Shown here one piece after another: positions 54,535 to 60,797 of a stretch of DNA of 64,000 nucleotides (its first letter is position 1; each line of letters begins with the position of its first letter). Below the pieces are notes generated by a model. It worked only from the letters and a program-made list of their open reading frames with translations, was not told where the DNA came from and ran no database searches. Made by a program: the position numbers and the translations under genes. Source of the DNA: Trueperella bialowiezensis (GTDB taxonomy: Bacteria > Actinomycetota > Actinomycetes > Actinomycetales > Actinomycetaceae); NCBI RefSeq assembly GCF_900637955.1, contig NZ_LR134476.1, positions 682,001 to 746,000 of the forward strand, read 5' to 3'.

Positions 54535-56133
54535 TTACTTCGGTAGCTCCATTTCGCCGCCGTCCTCGGTGCGTAGAGTCGCTGATCGCGGCTTGTATCC
54601 GTCCGGGTTGTTGCGGCGGAACTCGATCATCTGCGCCTCGTATTCGGCGTGCTTGGACCAATCCTTGGCCAGTTCGGCCGCCATGTCGAACTCGCGCTCG
54701 ATGATCGCGTTCGGACGGTAGGTCACCAGCGAGACGACCATCGTGACGACGAGGTTGACGATGAAGCCCGGCACGATCTCGTATAGGTCGAACATACCGC
54801 CGTCGATGTTGCCCCACACGGCCACGGTCACCGCGCCCATCGCCATGCCGGATAGCGCACCGAAGCCGGTGAGCTTGCGCCAGAACAGCGATAGCAGGAT
54901 CGTCGGCCCGAAGGACGCGCCGAACCCGGCCCATGCGAAGGCGACAAGTCCGAGGATCGTGTCGTTCGGCGTCCACGCGAGCCCGGCCGCCAACACGGCA
55001 ATGCCACCCACGGCGAGGCGGGAGAGCATGACGCCCTTCTTCGCGTCGAGCTTGCGGTTCGTGAACGTCATGTAGACGTCCTCGATAAGTGCGGACGAGC
55101 TGACCAGCAGCTGGGACGAGACCGTGGACATGATTGCCGCGAGGATCGCAGCCAGCATGAATCCGGCAATGAACGGGTGGAACAGCAGCTGGCCGAGCAC
55201 GATAAATACCTGCTCCGGGTTGGCGAGCGGGTTGTTTTCGTACCGGAAGATCGCGATGCCAACAAAGGCGGTGCCGAGCGCGCCGAACACGGCGAGCAGC
55301 ATCCAGCCGATGCCGATACGCCGGGCCGAGACGGCTTCCTTCGGATTCCGTAGCGCCATGAAGCGCACGATGATGTGCGGCTGGCCGAAGTATCCCAAGC
55401 CCCAGGCGAGTGCCGAGATGAGCCCGACGGCGGTGAGGCCTGCGAACGGTGAGAGCAGGTCGGGATCGACCGCGCGCGCCTTGTCGATCATTGAGTTCCA
55501 ACCGCCAACATGTGCGATGCCCACGGCCGGCACCAAGACCAGTGCGGCCATCATCATGAGCCCCTGCACGACGTCGGTGTATGACACGGCGAGGAAGCCG
55601 CCCACGAGCGTATAGAACAGTGTGATCGCAGCGATGAGGATCATGCCCGCACGGTAGTCCACGCCGAACGCGCCCTCGAAGAAGGTGCCGCCGGCGACCA
55701 TGCCAGACGAGACGTAGAAGGTGAAGTAGAACAGGATGATCAGGCCGGCCACGATGCGTAGCGCGTGCGTGGAATCGCGCAGACGTGAGTCAAGGAAGGA
55801 CGGCACCGTGATCGAATTGTTCGATACTTCCGTGTAGGAGCGCAGGCGCGGCGCCACGAACTTCCAGTTGAGCCAGGCGCCGGCGGTCAGGCCGATCGCA
55901 ATCCAAAATTCTACGAGGCCGGATACGTAGAGTGCGCCGGGCAGGCCCATGAGGAGCCAGCCGGACATGTCTGACGCGCCGGCAGAAAGTGCGGCCACCA
56001 GCGGGTTGAGTTGCCGGCCGCCAAGCATGTAGTCGTCGACGTCCGTGGTGCGCTTGTACGCCCACAGACCAATGCCGATCATGACGAGGAAGTAGATCAC
56101 CATCGTAATGATCTGCCACGTGGTATCGCTCAT
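54535..56133 (-). CDS. putP: Sodium/proline symporter PutP
   Basis: 532 residues with about 13 membrane segments, a solute:sodium symporter. DVDDYMLGGRQLNP after TM1, ALSAGASDMSGWLLMGLPGALYVSG in TM2 and AWGLGYFGQPHIIVRFMA are PutP signatures (the TM2 motif spans residues 48-72). It imports proline with sodium. The ATG at 56133 follows GGGGAT. It is divergent from putA across a 1.19-kb gap, so uptake and oxidation of proline are likely controlled from that region. Confidence 0.94.
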   Translation of the reverse strand: MSDTTWQIITMVIYFLVMIGIGLWAYKRTTDVDDYMLGGRQLNPLVAALSAGASDMSGWLLMGLPGALYVSGLVEFWIAIGLTAGAWLNWKFVAPRLRSYTEVSNNSITVPSFLDSRLRDSTHALRIVAGLIILFYFTFYVSSGMVAGGTFFEGAFGVDYRAGMILIAAITLFYTLVGGFLAVSYTDVVQGLMMMAALVLVPAVGIAHVGGWNSMIDKARAVDPDLLSPFAGLTAVGLISALAWGLGYFGQPHIIVRFMALRNPKEAVSARRIGIGWMLLAVFGALGTAFVGIAIFRYENNPLANPEQVFIVLGQLLFHPFIAGFMLAAILAAIMSTVSSQLLVSSSALIEDVYMTFTNRKLDAKKGVMLSRLAVGGIAVLAAGLAWTPNDTILGLVAFAWAGFGASFGPTILLSLFWRKLTGFGALSGMAMGAVTVAVWGNIDGGMFDLYEIVPGFIVNLVVTMVVSLVTYRPNAIIEREFDMAAELAKDWSKHAEYEAQMIEFRRNNPDGYKPRSATLRTEDGGEMELPK

Positions 56134-56210
56134 AATATCCCCTTTGCGTTAGATGCCGCGCGGACTGGCGCCATTACCAGTTCCCGCAGTGCGTAGCGAC
56201 TTACCAGTTA

Positions 56211-56244
56211 TGTAGAACACTACAACATTTCCTTTTGACGTCAA
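56211..56244 (-). promoter_or_regulatory. putP promoter region with two palindromes
   Basis: Palindrome TGTAG-AACA-CTACA (56211-56224) and palindrome TTGACGTCAA (56235-56244). Read toward putP, TTGACG followed after 16 nt by TAGTGT forms a plausible promoter whose -10 lies in the first palindrome. The start of putP is about 80 bp downstream. Confidence 0.5.
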
Positions 56245-56460
56245 GACTTTTAAAGAAAAACTTGAAATTCGCGACGGCGGTCTGGCCTCGGCTGGCGGCG
56301 GCTCCCGACGGCGGGCTGGCCTCGGCCTCGTGGGTAGGCCGCGACGGCTGCGGCCGTGGGCAGACGGAGGGCTTCCGGTTACGATCCCGCCTGTTTCAGC
56401 TGAGGCTGTCCGAGGCTGTCGTCGTCCAAAGCTTTTGCTGTGTGATTTCACGACATCGTT

Positions 56461-56539
56461 CCGGGGGTACGCGTTCACTTCCTGGGGTACCTAATCCGGC
56501 GATTTGTCTACCCCAGGAACGAAACAGGTACCCCGGGAA
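56461..56539. repeat. Cluster of four GGGGTA half-sites with 11-bp hairpin
   Basis: TTCCTGGGGTA (56479-56489) and TACCCCAGGAA (56509-56519) form a perfect 11-bp inverted repeat, flanked by an outer pair GGGGGTAC (56463-56470) and GTACCCCGG (56528-56536). The nested arrangement could be an operator array or an RNA fold. Confidence 0.65.
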
Positions 56540-56605
56540 TGCGTTGTACTGCTCCCGTTTGTCCTCTAACCCTATGGTGGGCTTGGCTCTTCGGTGCGGG
56601 GATAT

Positions 56606-56700
56606 CGCACCGAGTCCGCGTAACAGGTGACCTAGCGTAATCTCATTGCCAAAAAGCACGAAAATCAGCGTTTTTTCACCTGCTACGCGGAGTGCACCGA
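56606..56700 (+). other. Structured element A (long hairpin)
   Basis: AGTCCGCGTAACAGGTGA (56613-56630) pairs with TCACCTGCTACGCGGAGT (56676-56693) at 16 of 18 positions. The 45-nt loop holds GCGTAATCTCATTGC and the AGCA-GAAA motif. CACCGAGT lies on both sides of the stem. Confidence 0.7.
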
Positions 56701-56737
56701 GTATGGGTCATGCCGCAGGCGCTCCTTCTCACGCGCT

Positions 56738-56808
56738 ATTGCTACCACAGCAATCAATCCAGACTCGAAGGCTGTCGCATCCGTTTTCATTGCTACTAAA
56801 GCAGAAAC
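56738..56808 (+). repeat. Two copies of the ATTGCT-AGCA 20-nt motif
   Basis: ATTGCTACCACAGCAATCAA (56738-56757) and ATTGCTACTAAAGCAGAAAC (56789-56808). Further copies are in elements A (56645-56664) and B (56991-56971) and at 5004-5092. Each can form a small GCT/AGC stem. Confidence 0.7.
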
Positions 56809-56934
56809 CCACCACACGACCGGTCAACACTTGCCTCAACCCGCACCCGCTCATGCGTTCTATCTCCCCTGGCAAAAACGCCGCAACAAGCCACCCGTGG
56901 TAAGCCACTAAGAGAGCCCGCAGCGGGGCTTATA

Positions 56935-57027
56935 CTCGGCACACTCCGCATAACACATGAGAAAAGGGCCAATTTCCTGCTTTTCAGCAATGAGATTACG
57001 CCTGGTCATGTGTTACGCGGACTCGGT
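56935..57027 (-). other. Structured element B (inverted copy of A)
   Basis: Read on the minus strand, AGTCCGCGTAACACATGA pairs with TCATGTGTTATGCGGAGT (17 of 18 counting one G-U). Compared with element A, the inner pairs GG/CC are replaced by CA/TG, so both sides of the stem changed together. The loop contains TGCT-GAAA-AGCA, a possible GNRA-type tetraloop. Confidence 0.7.
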
Positions 57028-57138
57028 GAAGTATCCCCGCATTAAACACCCGAACCAGCCTGCCATTAACCCCATATTTGTCCACCAACACCGGAACGAT
57101 GTCCCGAGACACCCCCGCGCCAAAAACAACAAAAAATA

Positions 57139-57167
57139 TCTCGCGACACAGGAACTATGTCGCGAGA
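57139..57167. promoter_or_regulatory. Inverted repeat TCTCGCGACA-N9-TGTCGCGAGA upstream of putA
   Basis: A perfect 10-bp inverted repeat about 155 bp before the putA start. GGAAC-N-ATGTC-N-CGAGACA occurs here (57151) and again at 57093-57112. It could be an operator for putA or the end of a decayed mobile element. TTGCTC (57202) and TACACT boxes downstream may be the putA promoter. Confidence 0.55.
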
Positions 57168-57320
57168 CATCACAGTCCAAAGCTTTTGCCCTTCGAACCT
57201 ATTGCTCAGGCCCGAAATACACTACACTGTAAACATTCCAGCGGTGCCAAGGGCGGCACGCTGCCAACGATGGCATGCTAGCGATCTGGAATGGCCACCC
57301 GATTAAGTTGAGGGAGATAT

Positions 57321-60300
57321 ATGTCAGCTGTGAAAAACGACGTCGATTTCGCGCAGATCGCCAACGAGGCGATCAGGCAGGCTCGCATGTGGGCTAAACG
57401 CTCGGCCGACTTTCCGGAGGATCGTTCCGGCAAGCTTTTATCGCAAGTGTTGTCCGACGACGGCGGGCTCGACTTCACGGTTCAGTTCGTCGACGGCGTG
57501 ATACGGCCCGAGGACCCGGCTACTCGTGCGAAGAATTTGCGTAAACTCACCACGCGCGGCACCGGATTCTTGCCCATGTGGCTGTCTGCTCCGGCGAAGA
57601 TTGGTGGCACTCTTGCGCCGGTCTCTCCCACGTTCATCACCGAGGCTGCGTTCCGCGTGTTTCGGATGCTCGTGGGCAATCTTGTTCTTGACACGACGCC
57701 GAAGAAGCTCGGCCCGGCAGTCCGTAAGCTGCGGTCCGATGGCTCGCGGCTCAACCTGAACCTGCTCGGTGAGGCCGTGTTGGGCAAGAAGGAAGCCAGC
57801 GCCCGGCTTGCCGCCGTGAAAGAACTGTTGGAATACGATTTCGTCGACTACGTGTCGATCAAGGTCTCGTCGGTGCTTGGTGTGCATAACCCGTGGGGGT
57901 ACGATCAGGCGGTCGACCAGGCTGTTGAAGGCCTGTTGCCGCTGTTTAACACGGCGAAGGACGGCGGCAAGTTCGTCAACCTGGACATGGAGGAATACCA
58001 CGATCTGCACCTGACGATCGACGTGTTCACGAAGCTGCTGGATCGGCCCGAGTTCCGTGATCTGACGGCCGGTATCGTGTTGCAGGCCTACCTGCCCGAC
58101 GCCCTCCCGGCCATGGAGCGCCTGCAGGAGTGGGCAGCCAAGCGTGTGGCCGGTGGCGGCGCCCCGATCAAGGTGCGGCTGGTCAAGGGTGCGAACCTGC
58201 CGATGGAGCGGGTCGACGCCGCGATGCACGGCTGGAAGCTGGCCGTGCAACCCACGAAGGCGGCGACGGACGCGAACTACATGCGCGTCCTCGAATATGC
58301 TCTGCGCCCCGAACACATCGCGAACGTCCACTTGGGTATCGCCGGGCAGAACCTGTTCACGCTCGCCTTCGGACTCAAGCTTGCCAAGGCCCGTGGGATC
58401 ACGGAGGGTTTCGACGTCGAAATGCTCAAGGGTATGGCCACGAATCAGGCGCGGGCAATCCGCGAGGACGTCGGCCAGATCCTGTACTACGTGCCCGTCG
58501 TCGACCCGAACAATTACGACGTCGCCATCTCGTATTTGGTGCGGCGCCTCGAAGAGTCGGCCGCCCCGGAGAATTTCATGTCCGGCGTCTTCGATATTGC
58601 GGGCGACGACACGGTGTTTGCTCGCGAGCGGAATCGTTTTGCTACGGGTGTTGTGGGCGCGTTCCCGGATGCGAAGCTCGATAATACGAACGACGACGTC
58701 CCCGATCTTCACTTCGGTCCGAACCGCACGCAAAACCGGTCGACCGATTCGGTGCCTAAGCTCGAGAGCTTTGCGAACACACCCGATTCGGATCCGTCGC
58801 TGCCGGCGAACGTCGAGTGGGCGAAAGAGATTTTTGCGAAGATGGCCGATTCTGATCTTGGCACCGAGACCGCCGATGCGGCTCGTGTGCGTAGCGCCAA
58901 GGAGATGAAGGAGATCATTGCGAAGGCGCGCGAGAACAGTACGGCGTGGGCGGATCGGCCTGCGGCGGAGCGAGCCGATATTTTGCGGCGTGCCGGGCAG
59001 ATTCTTGGCGAGCGCCGCGCCCAACTCATTGAGGTGGCTGCGTCCGAATGCGGGAAGGTTGTGGGTGAAGCCGACGTCGAGGTCTCCGAAGCGATCGATT
59101 TCGCGAACTACTATGCCGATCTGGCGGAGGAGCTCGATCAGCTCGACGGCGTCGCTGTGACTCCCGAGCAGCTGACGGCCGCGATTCCGCCGTGGAACTT
59201 CCCGCTGGCGATCCCGGCCGGGTCGGCGCTCGCGCCGCTGGCCACCGGGTCGGTCGTCTTGTTTAAGCCGGCCGAGCAGGCACGCCGCTGTGGCGCCGTT
59301 ATCGCCGAAGCGCTGTGGGACGCCGGGGTGCCGCGCGAGGCGCTCATTCTTGTGGACGTGCATCCCGATGACATGGACGAGGTGGGCACCGAACTCGTCA
59401 CCGGCTCCGACCAGGTGATCCTCACCGGCTCGATTGATACGGCGAAGCTGTTCCGCTCTTGGCAGCCCGACCTGAAGATTTCGGCCGAAACCTCGGGTAA
59501 GAACGCGATCGTCGTCACCCCGCAGGCCGACATTGATTTGGCCGCGAAAGACGTGGTCAATTCTGCGTTCGGTCACGCCGGGCAGAAGTGTTCGGCGGCG
59601 TCGCTCGCGATCTTGGTTGGTCCGATGGGCGAGTCGAAGCGGCTGCTGGATCAGATTGTGGATGCGGCGAATTCGCTCGTGGTCGACTATCCCACCAATC
59701 CGACCGCGGAAATGGGGCCGATTATCGAACCGGCGGCTGGCAAGCTTAAGCGCGGGCTCACAGAGTTGGCACCTGGCGAAAAGTGGCTGCTTAAGCCGCG
59801 CCAGCTGGATGACACGGGCCGGCTGTGGTCGCCCGGCATTCGCGACGGCGTCAAGCCCGGCGCCGACGCGCACATGACCGAATACTTCGGCCCGGTGCTG
59901 GCGATCATGCGGGTGGACACGCTCGATGAGGCGCTCGCCGTGCAGAACGCCGTCGAATTCGGGTTGACCGCCGGAATCCACTCCCTGGATTCAGAAGAAA
60001 TTGCTTACTGGCTCGAACGGGTCGAAGCCGGCAATGTTTACATTAACCGCGGGATCACGGGGGCGATCGTGCGCCGCCAGCCGTTTGGCGGGTGGAAGCG
60101 TTCGCAGGTGGGTACAGGGTCGAAAGCCGGCGGGCCAAACCACCTGATCGGCCTGGTTAACGTGGCACCCGCCCCGCGCACGCAGCCCGACCAGCTCGGC
60201 GCCCTGCACCTACCAGGGTTCACCGCCCTCGACGAGCTGCACAGCAAGATCGACGACGCCGCGGCGGTGGCCGACTTCCGGCACGCCCTGCGTTCGGTGC

Positions 60301-60797
60301 AGCAAGCCGTGGACGACATCTACCTGGCTGAGGTTGACGTGAGCGGACTGGGCGTTGAGAAGAACGTGTTCCGCTACCGGCCCACCGACGTGCTCGTGCG
60401 CATCGAGGATCCGGAAGACTGGTGGCAGGCGGCCCCGATGATTGCCGGCGCTGCTGCTGGCGGGACGAAGGTGACCGTGTCGGTCGGCGATGACCTACGC
60501 GACACGGTAGCCCAGGCGCTACGCGGGGTCGGCGCCGTCGTCGACACCGTAGACCGCGACACCTGGTTGGCCGATCTGGAAGCCGATCCGACCGCCGTCC
60601 GGAAGATCCGCTACTTTGGTGATGATCCGGCTGAGGTCGCGCGGGCTGTGGGCGGCTCAGTCGACGTGGCGATCTATTCCGATCCGGCTACGTTTAACGG
60701 CCGGGTGGACCTGCGTCCGTTCTTCCTTGAGCAGGCCGTGGCTGCCACGAACCACAGGTTCGGCGACCACACGCCGCTGCTTGACAGGGTGATCTAA
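57321..60797 (+). CDS. putA: Bifunctional proline dehydrogenase / L-glutamate gamma-semialdehyde dehydrogenase PutA
   Basis: 1158 residues. The FAD-dependent proline dehydrogenase domain (about 60-470) shows VKLVKGANL-like RLVKGANLPMERVDA, DVEMLKGMA and a C-terminal YLVRRLEESAAPENF. The aldehyde dehydrogenase domain (about 500-980) has IPPWNFPLAIPAGSALAP, AETSGKN and the catalytic GHAGQKCSAAS with Cys757. A further region to residue 1158 resembles a degenerate nucleotide-binding fold. It converts proline to glutamate with substrate channelling. There is no N-terminal ribbon-helix-helix domain, so it should not repress its own gene, unlike enterobacterial PutA. Start ATG with GAGGGAG upstream. 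Confidence 0.95.
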   Translation: MSAVKNDVDFAQIANEAIRQARMWAKRSADFPEDRSGKLLSQVLSDDGGLDFTVQFVDGVIRPEDPATRAKNLRKLTTRGTGFLPMWLSAPAKIGGTLAPVSPTFITEAAFRVFRMLVGNLVLDTTPKKLGPAVRKLRSDGSRLNLNLLGEAVLGKKEASARLAAVKELLEYDFVDYVSIKVSSVLGVHNPWGYDQAVDQAVEGLLPLFNTAKDGGKFVNLDMEEYHDLHLTIDVFTKLLDRPEFRDLTAGIVLQAYLPDALPAMERLQEWAAKRVAGGGAPIKVRLVKGANLPMERVDAAMHGWKLAVQPTKAATDANYMRVLEYALRPEHIANVHLGIAGQNLFTLAFGLKLAKARGITEGFDVEMLKGMATNQARAIREDVGQILYYVPVVDPNNYDVAISYLVRRLEESAAPENFMSGVFDIAGDDTVFARERNRFATGVVGAFPDAKLDNTNDDVPDLHFGPNRTQNRSTDSVPKLESFANTPDSDPSLPANVEWAKEIFAKMADSDLGTETADAARVRSAKEMKEIIAKARENSTAWADRPAAERADILRRAGQILGERRAQLIEVAASECGKVVGEADVEVSEAIDFANYYADLAEELDQLDGVAVTPEQLTAAIPPWNFPLAIPAGSALAPLATGSVVLFKPAEQARRCGAVIAEALWDAGVPREALILVDVHPDDMDEVGTELVTGSDQVILTGSIDTAKLFRSWQPDLKISAETSGKNAIVVTPQADIDLAAKDVVNSAFGHAGQKCSAASLAILVGPMGESKRLLDQIVDAANSLVVDYPTNPTAEMGPIIEPAAGKLKRGLTELAPGEKWLLKPRQLDDTGRLWSPGIRDGVKPGADAHMTEYFGPVLAIMRVDTLDEALAVQNAVEFGLTAGIHSLDSEEIAYWLERVEAGNVYINRGITGAIVRRQPFGGWKRSQVGTGSKAGGPNHLIGLVNVAPAPRTQPDQLGALHLPGFTALDELHSKIDDAAAVADFRHALRSVQQAVDDIYLAEVDVSGLGVEKNVFRYRPTDVLVRIEDPEDWWQAAPMIAGAAAGGTKVTVSVGDDLRDTVAQALRGVGAVVDTVDRDTWLADLEADPTAVRKIRYFGDDPAEVARAVGGSVDVAIYSDPATFNGRVDLRPFFLEQAVAATNHRFGDHTPLLDRVI

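Follow-up and report, generated by a model that had tools for sequence, protein, structure and literature searches.

Insertion sequences of the IS481 family have ends that start 5′-TGT and generate target-site duplications (TSDs) of 2-15 bp, with about 15 bp in some members (PMC10045372). Most members give 6-bp TSDs, several of them at CTAG (PMC6794481, PMC2516522). Within the family, ISArsp8 from the Arthrobacter plasmid pA58H2 has ends of the TGTGATCTCTCAGAACATCGTTTACA type and repeated inner sites, together with a direct repeat of 15 bp (PMC6305408), and an IS481 element that inserts into REP sequences is known (PMC11708052). The IS1202 family inserts at dif/pdif sites, and TSDs of the IS1202 group can exceed 15 bp (PMC10132070). 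Transfer RNA genes serve as attachment sites of Tn7-like transposons and of type V-K and I-D CASTs (PMC11406308). Bacterial MITEs (reviewed in PMC10969869) are short and non-coding, have inverted ends and a TSD, and are mobilised in trans.

The stretch of Trueperella DNA analysed here (64,000 nucleotides, hereafter the window) carries a non-coding block between the genes for proline uptake (putP) and oxidation (putA), which we firmly identify as a transposon element. We further consider it very probable that the block is one non-autonomous (MITE-like) transposon of a particular IS481-family clade, guided to its site by a T-arm-like box in the manner proposed below. Membership of the window element in the IS481 family rests on its ends, there being no transposase within it; these ends begin with TGTG and are bracketed by a 15-bp TSD, within the family range. 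A related transposase from a congener, P0001, passes the NF033577 cut-off. The clade differs from the family as described in that it targets tRNA 3′ ends, and the window copy differs in being without a transposase.

The element shares with ISArsp8 the end type, the repeated inner sites and the 15-bp direct repeat, although the published account of ISArsp8 does not link its direct repeat to tRNA sequence. A 73-kb Arthrobacter plasmid, which we infer to be pA58H2, gave a single P0001-like match; at 34% identity it lies outside the clade (48-100%). In having a single transposase, a fixed target and a fixed orientation the clade resembles the IS1202 family and the REP-targeting IS481 element, whose targets are dif-like sites or REPs, whereas those of the clade are tRNA genes. 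The TGT/ACA ends and the use of tRNA genes as safe sites that are left intact recall the Tn7-like elements and CASTs; however, these employ TnsD/TniQ or a guide RNA, while the clade has one transposase gene and uses many isotypes. The window element is short and non-coding with inverted ends and a TSD, like bacterial MITEs, and differs from them by carrying nested, dispersed palindromes (A, B and C) that are also found alone.

Structure of the putP-putA block

The gap between putP and putA measures 1187 bp in the window, as against 311, 132, 208 and 217 bp in four congeners, all of which lack the block. A short stretch similar to the insertion site, GGACAAAGCGCTTCTTGGCC, lies near the expected place in genome G004. 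It was read by eye, the automatic alignment being poor, and is suggestive of the exact pre-insertion site. On the putP side of the gap, at window positions 56269-56326, are two 24-nt direct repeats, TCGCGACGGCGGTCTGGCCTCGGC, which are 92% identical and 34 bp apart.

The first-pass annotation of this DNA described the gap as holding two diverged copies of one element in opposite orientation. The inverted symmetry is real: local alignment of the left half with the reverse-complemented right half gave a score of 110, compared with a maximum of 29 in 1000 shuffles. The hairpin blocks (unit B) had been placed correctly to within 2 bp, and the two copies are 80% identical over 110 bp (E ~5e-22). The correspondence of ATGG-N-GGCT segments can be seen in the sequence, and in agreement with that annotation no coding gene was found in the block. 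The '38-nt ends' do match each other, not as a single inverted unit but as a perfect 15-bp direct repeat (100% identical) on the outside and 24 bp of inverted repeat on the inside, the latter with 18/24 positions identical. Together the direct repeat and the inverted ends define a single inserted element of the TGT...ACA type with its target-site duplication (Table 1). The two halves are related to one another in inverted orientation without being full copies of each other: the 81-bp palindrome A is present in the left half only. The right half has the end hairpin and an inner binding-site-like repeat in its stead.

From left to right the element consists of the left end, A, B, C, a unique stretch, an inverted B, an inner copy of the end repeat and, last, the right end. 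The inner copy, CGGGACATCGTTCCG, is probably a second binding site for the transposase. No transposase gene and no sizeable gene-like open reading frame were found in the block, and the transposase query had no match anywhere in the genome; a decayed gene as the origin of the region has no support.

Table 1. Features of the putP-putA region (window coordinates).
Feature	Position	Strand	Basis or remark
putP, sodium/proline symporter	54535..56133	-	TIGR02121, 674 bits
putA-type proline/glutamate-semialdehyde dehydrogenase	57321..60797	+	PutA/P5C dehydrogenase models score best in NCBIfam, without reaching the full-length PutA cut-offs
Whole non-autonomous IS481-type element, 736 bp, without transposase gene	56439..57174	.	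terminal inverted repeats, flanking direct repeat, related genomic copies
Target-site duplication, left, GTCCAAAGCTTTTGC	56424..56438	+	perfect direct repeat
Target-site duplication, right, GTCCAAAGCTTTTGC	57175..57189	+	perfect direct repeat
Left terminal inverted repeat TGTGTGATTTCACGACATCGTTCC	56439..56462	+	in G002 (L056) an end of this type stands ahead of the gene for the IS481 transposase
Right terminal inverted repeat TGTGATGTCTCGCGACATAGTTCC	57151..57174	-	identical to the end beside tRNA-Leu in G002 (L052)
Inner copy of end repeat CGGGACATCGTTCCG	57092..57106	-	end-repeat similarity
Right-end hairpin, 17 pairs, then T run; intrinsic-terminator-like, reading inward	57135..57171	-	
Unit A, 81-bp imperfect palindrome, four TTCCSGGGGTA motifs	56459..56539	+	about 42 genome copies
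Unit B hairpin, left copy	56595..56704	+	
Unit B hairpin, right inverted copy	56932..57041	-	
Unit C, two mini-hairpins TGCTACCACAGCA ... TGCTACTAAAGCAG, ~36 bp apart	56721..56808	-	also in L002, L003
T-arm-like box TTCGAACC, 17 nt outside right end; proposed target-recognition site	57192..57199	+	

Related copies in the genome and in a congener

Further composite and partial copies of the element, together with solo A and B units, are dispersed through the genome to which the window belongs (2.04 Mb, one contig). A search of this genome for end-like sequences gave 21 matches, some of them weak, and the reversed-pattern control gave none. One locus (L003) is a complete copy whose duplication, TGGTGGAGCTAAGGG, is the 3′ end of tRNA-Ala, and another (L033) is a related copy with a target duplication. 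Dispersed copies with target duplications had been named beforehand as the mark of a mobile element, and they are present. At four more loci the right end stands against a tRNA gene, namely tRNA-Ser (L032 and L041), tRNA-Gly (L047) and tRNA-Pro (L069). At L002 (near 936.2-937.1 kb of G000:C1) the tRNA-Pro 3′ end recurs outside the left end of a composite element, together with the terminator downstream of it, and the repeat there is thus longer than 15 bp.

Neither an rve-domain transposase nor any match to P0001 was found in this genome. The window element is likely to be immobile because no IS481-type transposase is left in the genome, and the element family there is non-autonomous and probably immobile as a whole.

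A transposase-bearing relative is present in another Trueperella genome, G002 (L052/L056, G002:C1:87200-89800). Its right end, TGTGATGTCTCGCGACATAGTTCC, directly follows tRNA-Leu, and next to its left end, TGTGTGGTTTCACGACATCGTTCC, the tRNA-Leu 3′ end occurs again as CCCCCTCGAGCACCA. This element encodes P0001, an IS481-family transposase (NF033577, 240.4 bits; cut-off 224), and also an IS1249-family transposase. A second right end is located directly past the duplication.

Target choice at tRNA genes

Searching named genomes with P0001 gave 80 loci at 48-100% identity, mostly in Actinomycetota and also in Chloroflexi, Tissierella and others. Among the 67 loci with at least 400 bp of downstream sequence, 54 had a tRNA 3′ end (tRNAs called by ARAGORN) abutting the right end, always in one orientation and 181-285 bp past the transposase. 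Twelve isotypes were represented. With an expected tRNA association of ~0.003 per locus, the association of the clade with tRNA genes is firm. The right end at these sites starts at, or a few bases from, the tRNA 3′ end, and the target duplications of the clade, 13-18 bp in length, repeat the tRNA 3′ end. As a control we took the 30 top-scoring ordinary IS481 loci of the order (21-33% identical to P0001), and 0/30 had a tRNA gene within ~1.5 kb on each side.

The sequence outward from the right end was then compared with the T-arm box TTYGAACC, allowing up to one mismatch, at the 71 loci with readable ends. The box is found at an offset of 17-19 nt in 64 of these 71 loci (17 in 27, 18 in 34 and 19 in 3), which are non-independent, several being copies within one genome or from close relatives. 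Over all positions of the window, the fraction that has an exact box at offsets 16-19 is 9.4e-5. The box is missing in L107, L113, L134, L180 (masked at that point), L183 and L185, while L110 failed solely through its differing right end. In the window's own genome L033 and L039 are without a clear T-arm box.

The putP-putA insertion has TTCGAACC at an offset of exactly 17, and neither ARAGORN nor Rfam found a whole or residual tRNA at this site. It is the one case of a perfect box away from a tRNA gene that was examined in detail; L106 is also an off-tRNA insertion, and its box has one mismatch, while L033, L039 and L107 show no clear one. Six further loci (L118, L144, L157, L164, L167 and L174) have a fragment comprising T-arm and acceptor at the right end and no complete tRNA by ARAGORN. 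A copy on an Arthrobacter plasmid (L257, NZ_CP012477.1) similarly sits at a tRNA 3′ fragment, TGGTGCCCCGGGCGG plus GAATTGAACCC, with no full tRNA. These fragment insertions suggest that the DNA motif alone may suffice, although the rest of the tRNA could have been lost later. L257 was the only record of the clade among 72,556 plasmid records at E below 1e-60, and the clade was not found in phages. Plasmids and phages usually have few or no tRNA genes.

Based on these data we propose that the T-arm sequence is read as DNA by the transposase, or by something brought by it, and that the cut falls ~15-17 bp from the box. Recognition as DNA would allow one enzyme to use tRNAs of many isotypes. At the tRNA sites of the clade the right end faces the tRNA, and about 15 bp of the tRNA 3′ end are duplicated, which leaves the tRNA gene whole after insertion. 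Under the proposal the putP-putA copy would have gone in away from a tRNA, directed by TTCGAACC happening to lie at the required distance. The sequence pattern strongly argues for the transposase as the reader of the T-arm; alternatively, the signal could be borne by the tRNA or read by a host factor.

In 34 of 78 right ends there is a hairpin after which at least four of eight bases are T. The stems (window 57135-57171; L050-L065, L106-L129) vary in sequence by species with their pairing kept, and the hairpin is predicted to act as a tRNA terminator. In part of the clade it would stop transcription of the tRNA immediately behind CCA. We hold with moderate confidence the general statement that the one transposase of this IS481-type clade reads the T-arm as DNA, inserts beside almost any tRNA gene, whatever its isotype, and keeps the gene intact by duplication, one branch supplying its own terminator after CCA.

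By itself the putP-putA block is an ordinary transposon relic, and the interest lies in the targeting rule that it exposes, by which a one-protein insertion sequence would take as its address the stretch most conserved among tRNA genes, with fixed offset and orientation. If true, this would offer a new model of target choice by one enzyme, in contrast to the dedicated selectors or guide RNAs that Tn7-like elements need at tRNA sites, and might yield a compact tool for placing DNA at such safe sites. The rule would also aid annotation of the many short unexplained repeats beside tRNA genes. In the open-access literature we found no description of IS481 elements that insert at the 3′ ends of tRNA genes.

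The tRNA preference of the clade could instead be the outcome of selection only, with insertions elsewhere being lethal or lost, tRNA 3′ ends being safe, and the T-arm having no specific role. Such ends are indeed common safe sites of mobile elements, for example Tn7-like ones (PMC8649781, PMC11406308). Safety alone, however, would not lead one to expect the fixed offset and orientation seen in 64/71 loci, nor do the ordinary IS481 elements of the same order share the preference, and the off-tRNA insertions in the window and at L106 keep the box. We therefore regard selection without T-arm specificity as unlikely. As to the block itself, the first-pass annotation had considered a decayed MITE or IS pair. 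Its mobile-element part is borne out by the inverted ends, the TSD, the dispersed copies and the ends held in common with the transposase-bearing congener element; the pair is replaced by one composite element. Two separate elements inserted head to head would explain why the halves look like parts of different copies, the left one like the left half of L003 (end-A-B-C) and the right one like L032 (B-right end), as though two element types had been joined. Yet the block in its entirety lies within a single perfect 15-bp duplication, as expected from one insertion of one unit, which makes two insertions very unlikely. The pairing of the halves may have formed earlier through recombination between copies.

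The same annotation had also offered a paired regulatory RNA, or a transcription-control locus specific to putP/putA, in which RNA hairpins would control the divergent genes. The block does sit between functionally linked divergent genes, and units A and B have hairpin potential. Unit B even shows one two-base compensatory change (CACATG/CATGTG versus CAGGTG/CACCTG), which is weak evidence for selection on pairing. Against this, units of these kinds recur at numerous unrelated loci and are absent from the gap in the four congeners; Rfam covariance models gave no match up to E = 1 in 56100-57340, no sigma-70-like promoter site was found in the block region, and of 18 intergenic copies of unit A 11 lie between convergent genes and only 1 between divergent genes. 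A regulatory role for putP/putA is thus not supported in this analysis and appears extremely improbable, and we retain the reading of the block as one inserted, non-autonomous IS481-type element.

Dispersed units A, B and C

All copies of unit A in the genome have a constant length of 81 bp. The unit was not found in other Trueperella, and it had no match in public genome or viral contig collections, from which the window's own species may have been left out. Among 213 family genomes, the A+B stretch matches the window's own genome only. At positions 5 and 77 the palindrome has a coupled mismatch, C...C in 13/28 copies and G...G in 11/28, a pattern suggesting that about half of the copies have the centre of A inverted with respect to its arms. 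An origin of unit A as a REP/RAYT system was considered and rejected: the genome has no Y1 (RAYT-type) transposase, PF01797 being absent, and no TSDs were found around the copies of A.

Unit B is present in 14 copies. Paired mini-hairpins of the unit C/D type, TGCTACCACAGCA and TGCTATATAAGCAG, ~36 bp apart, recur in the window (56721-56808) and at L002, L004, L006, L041, L047 and L069.
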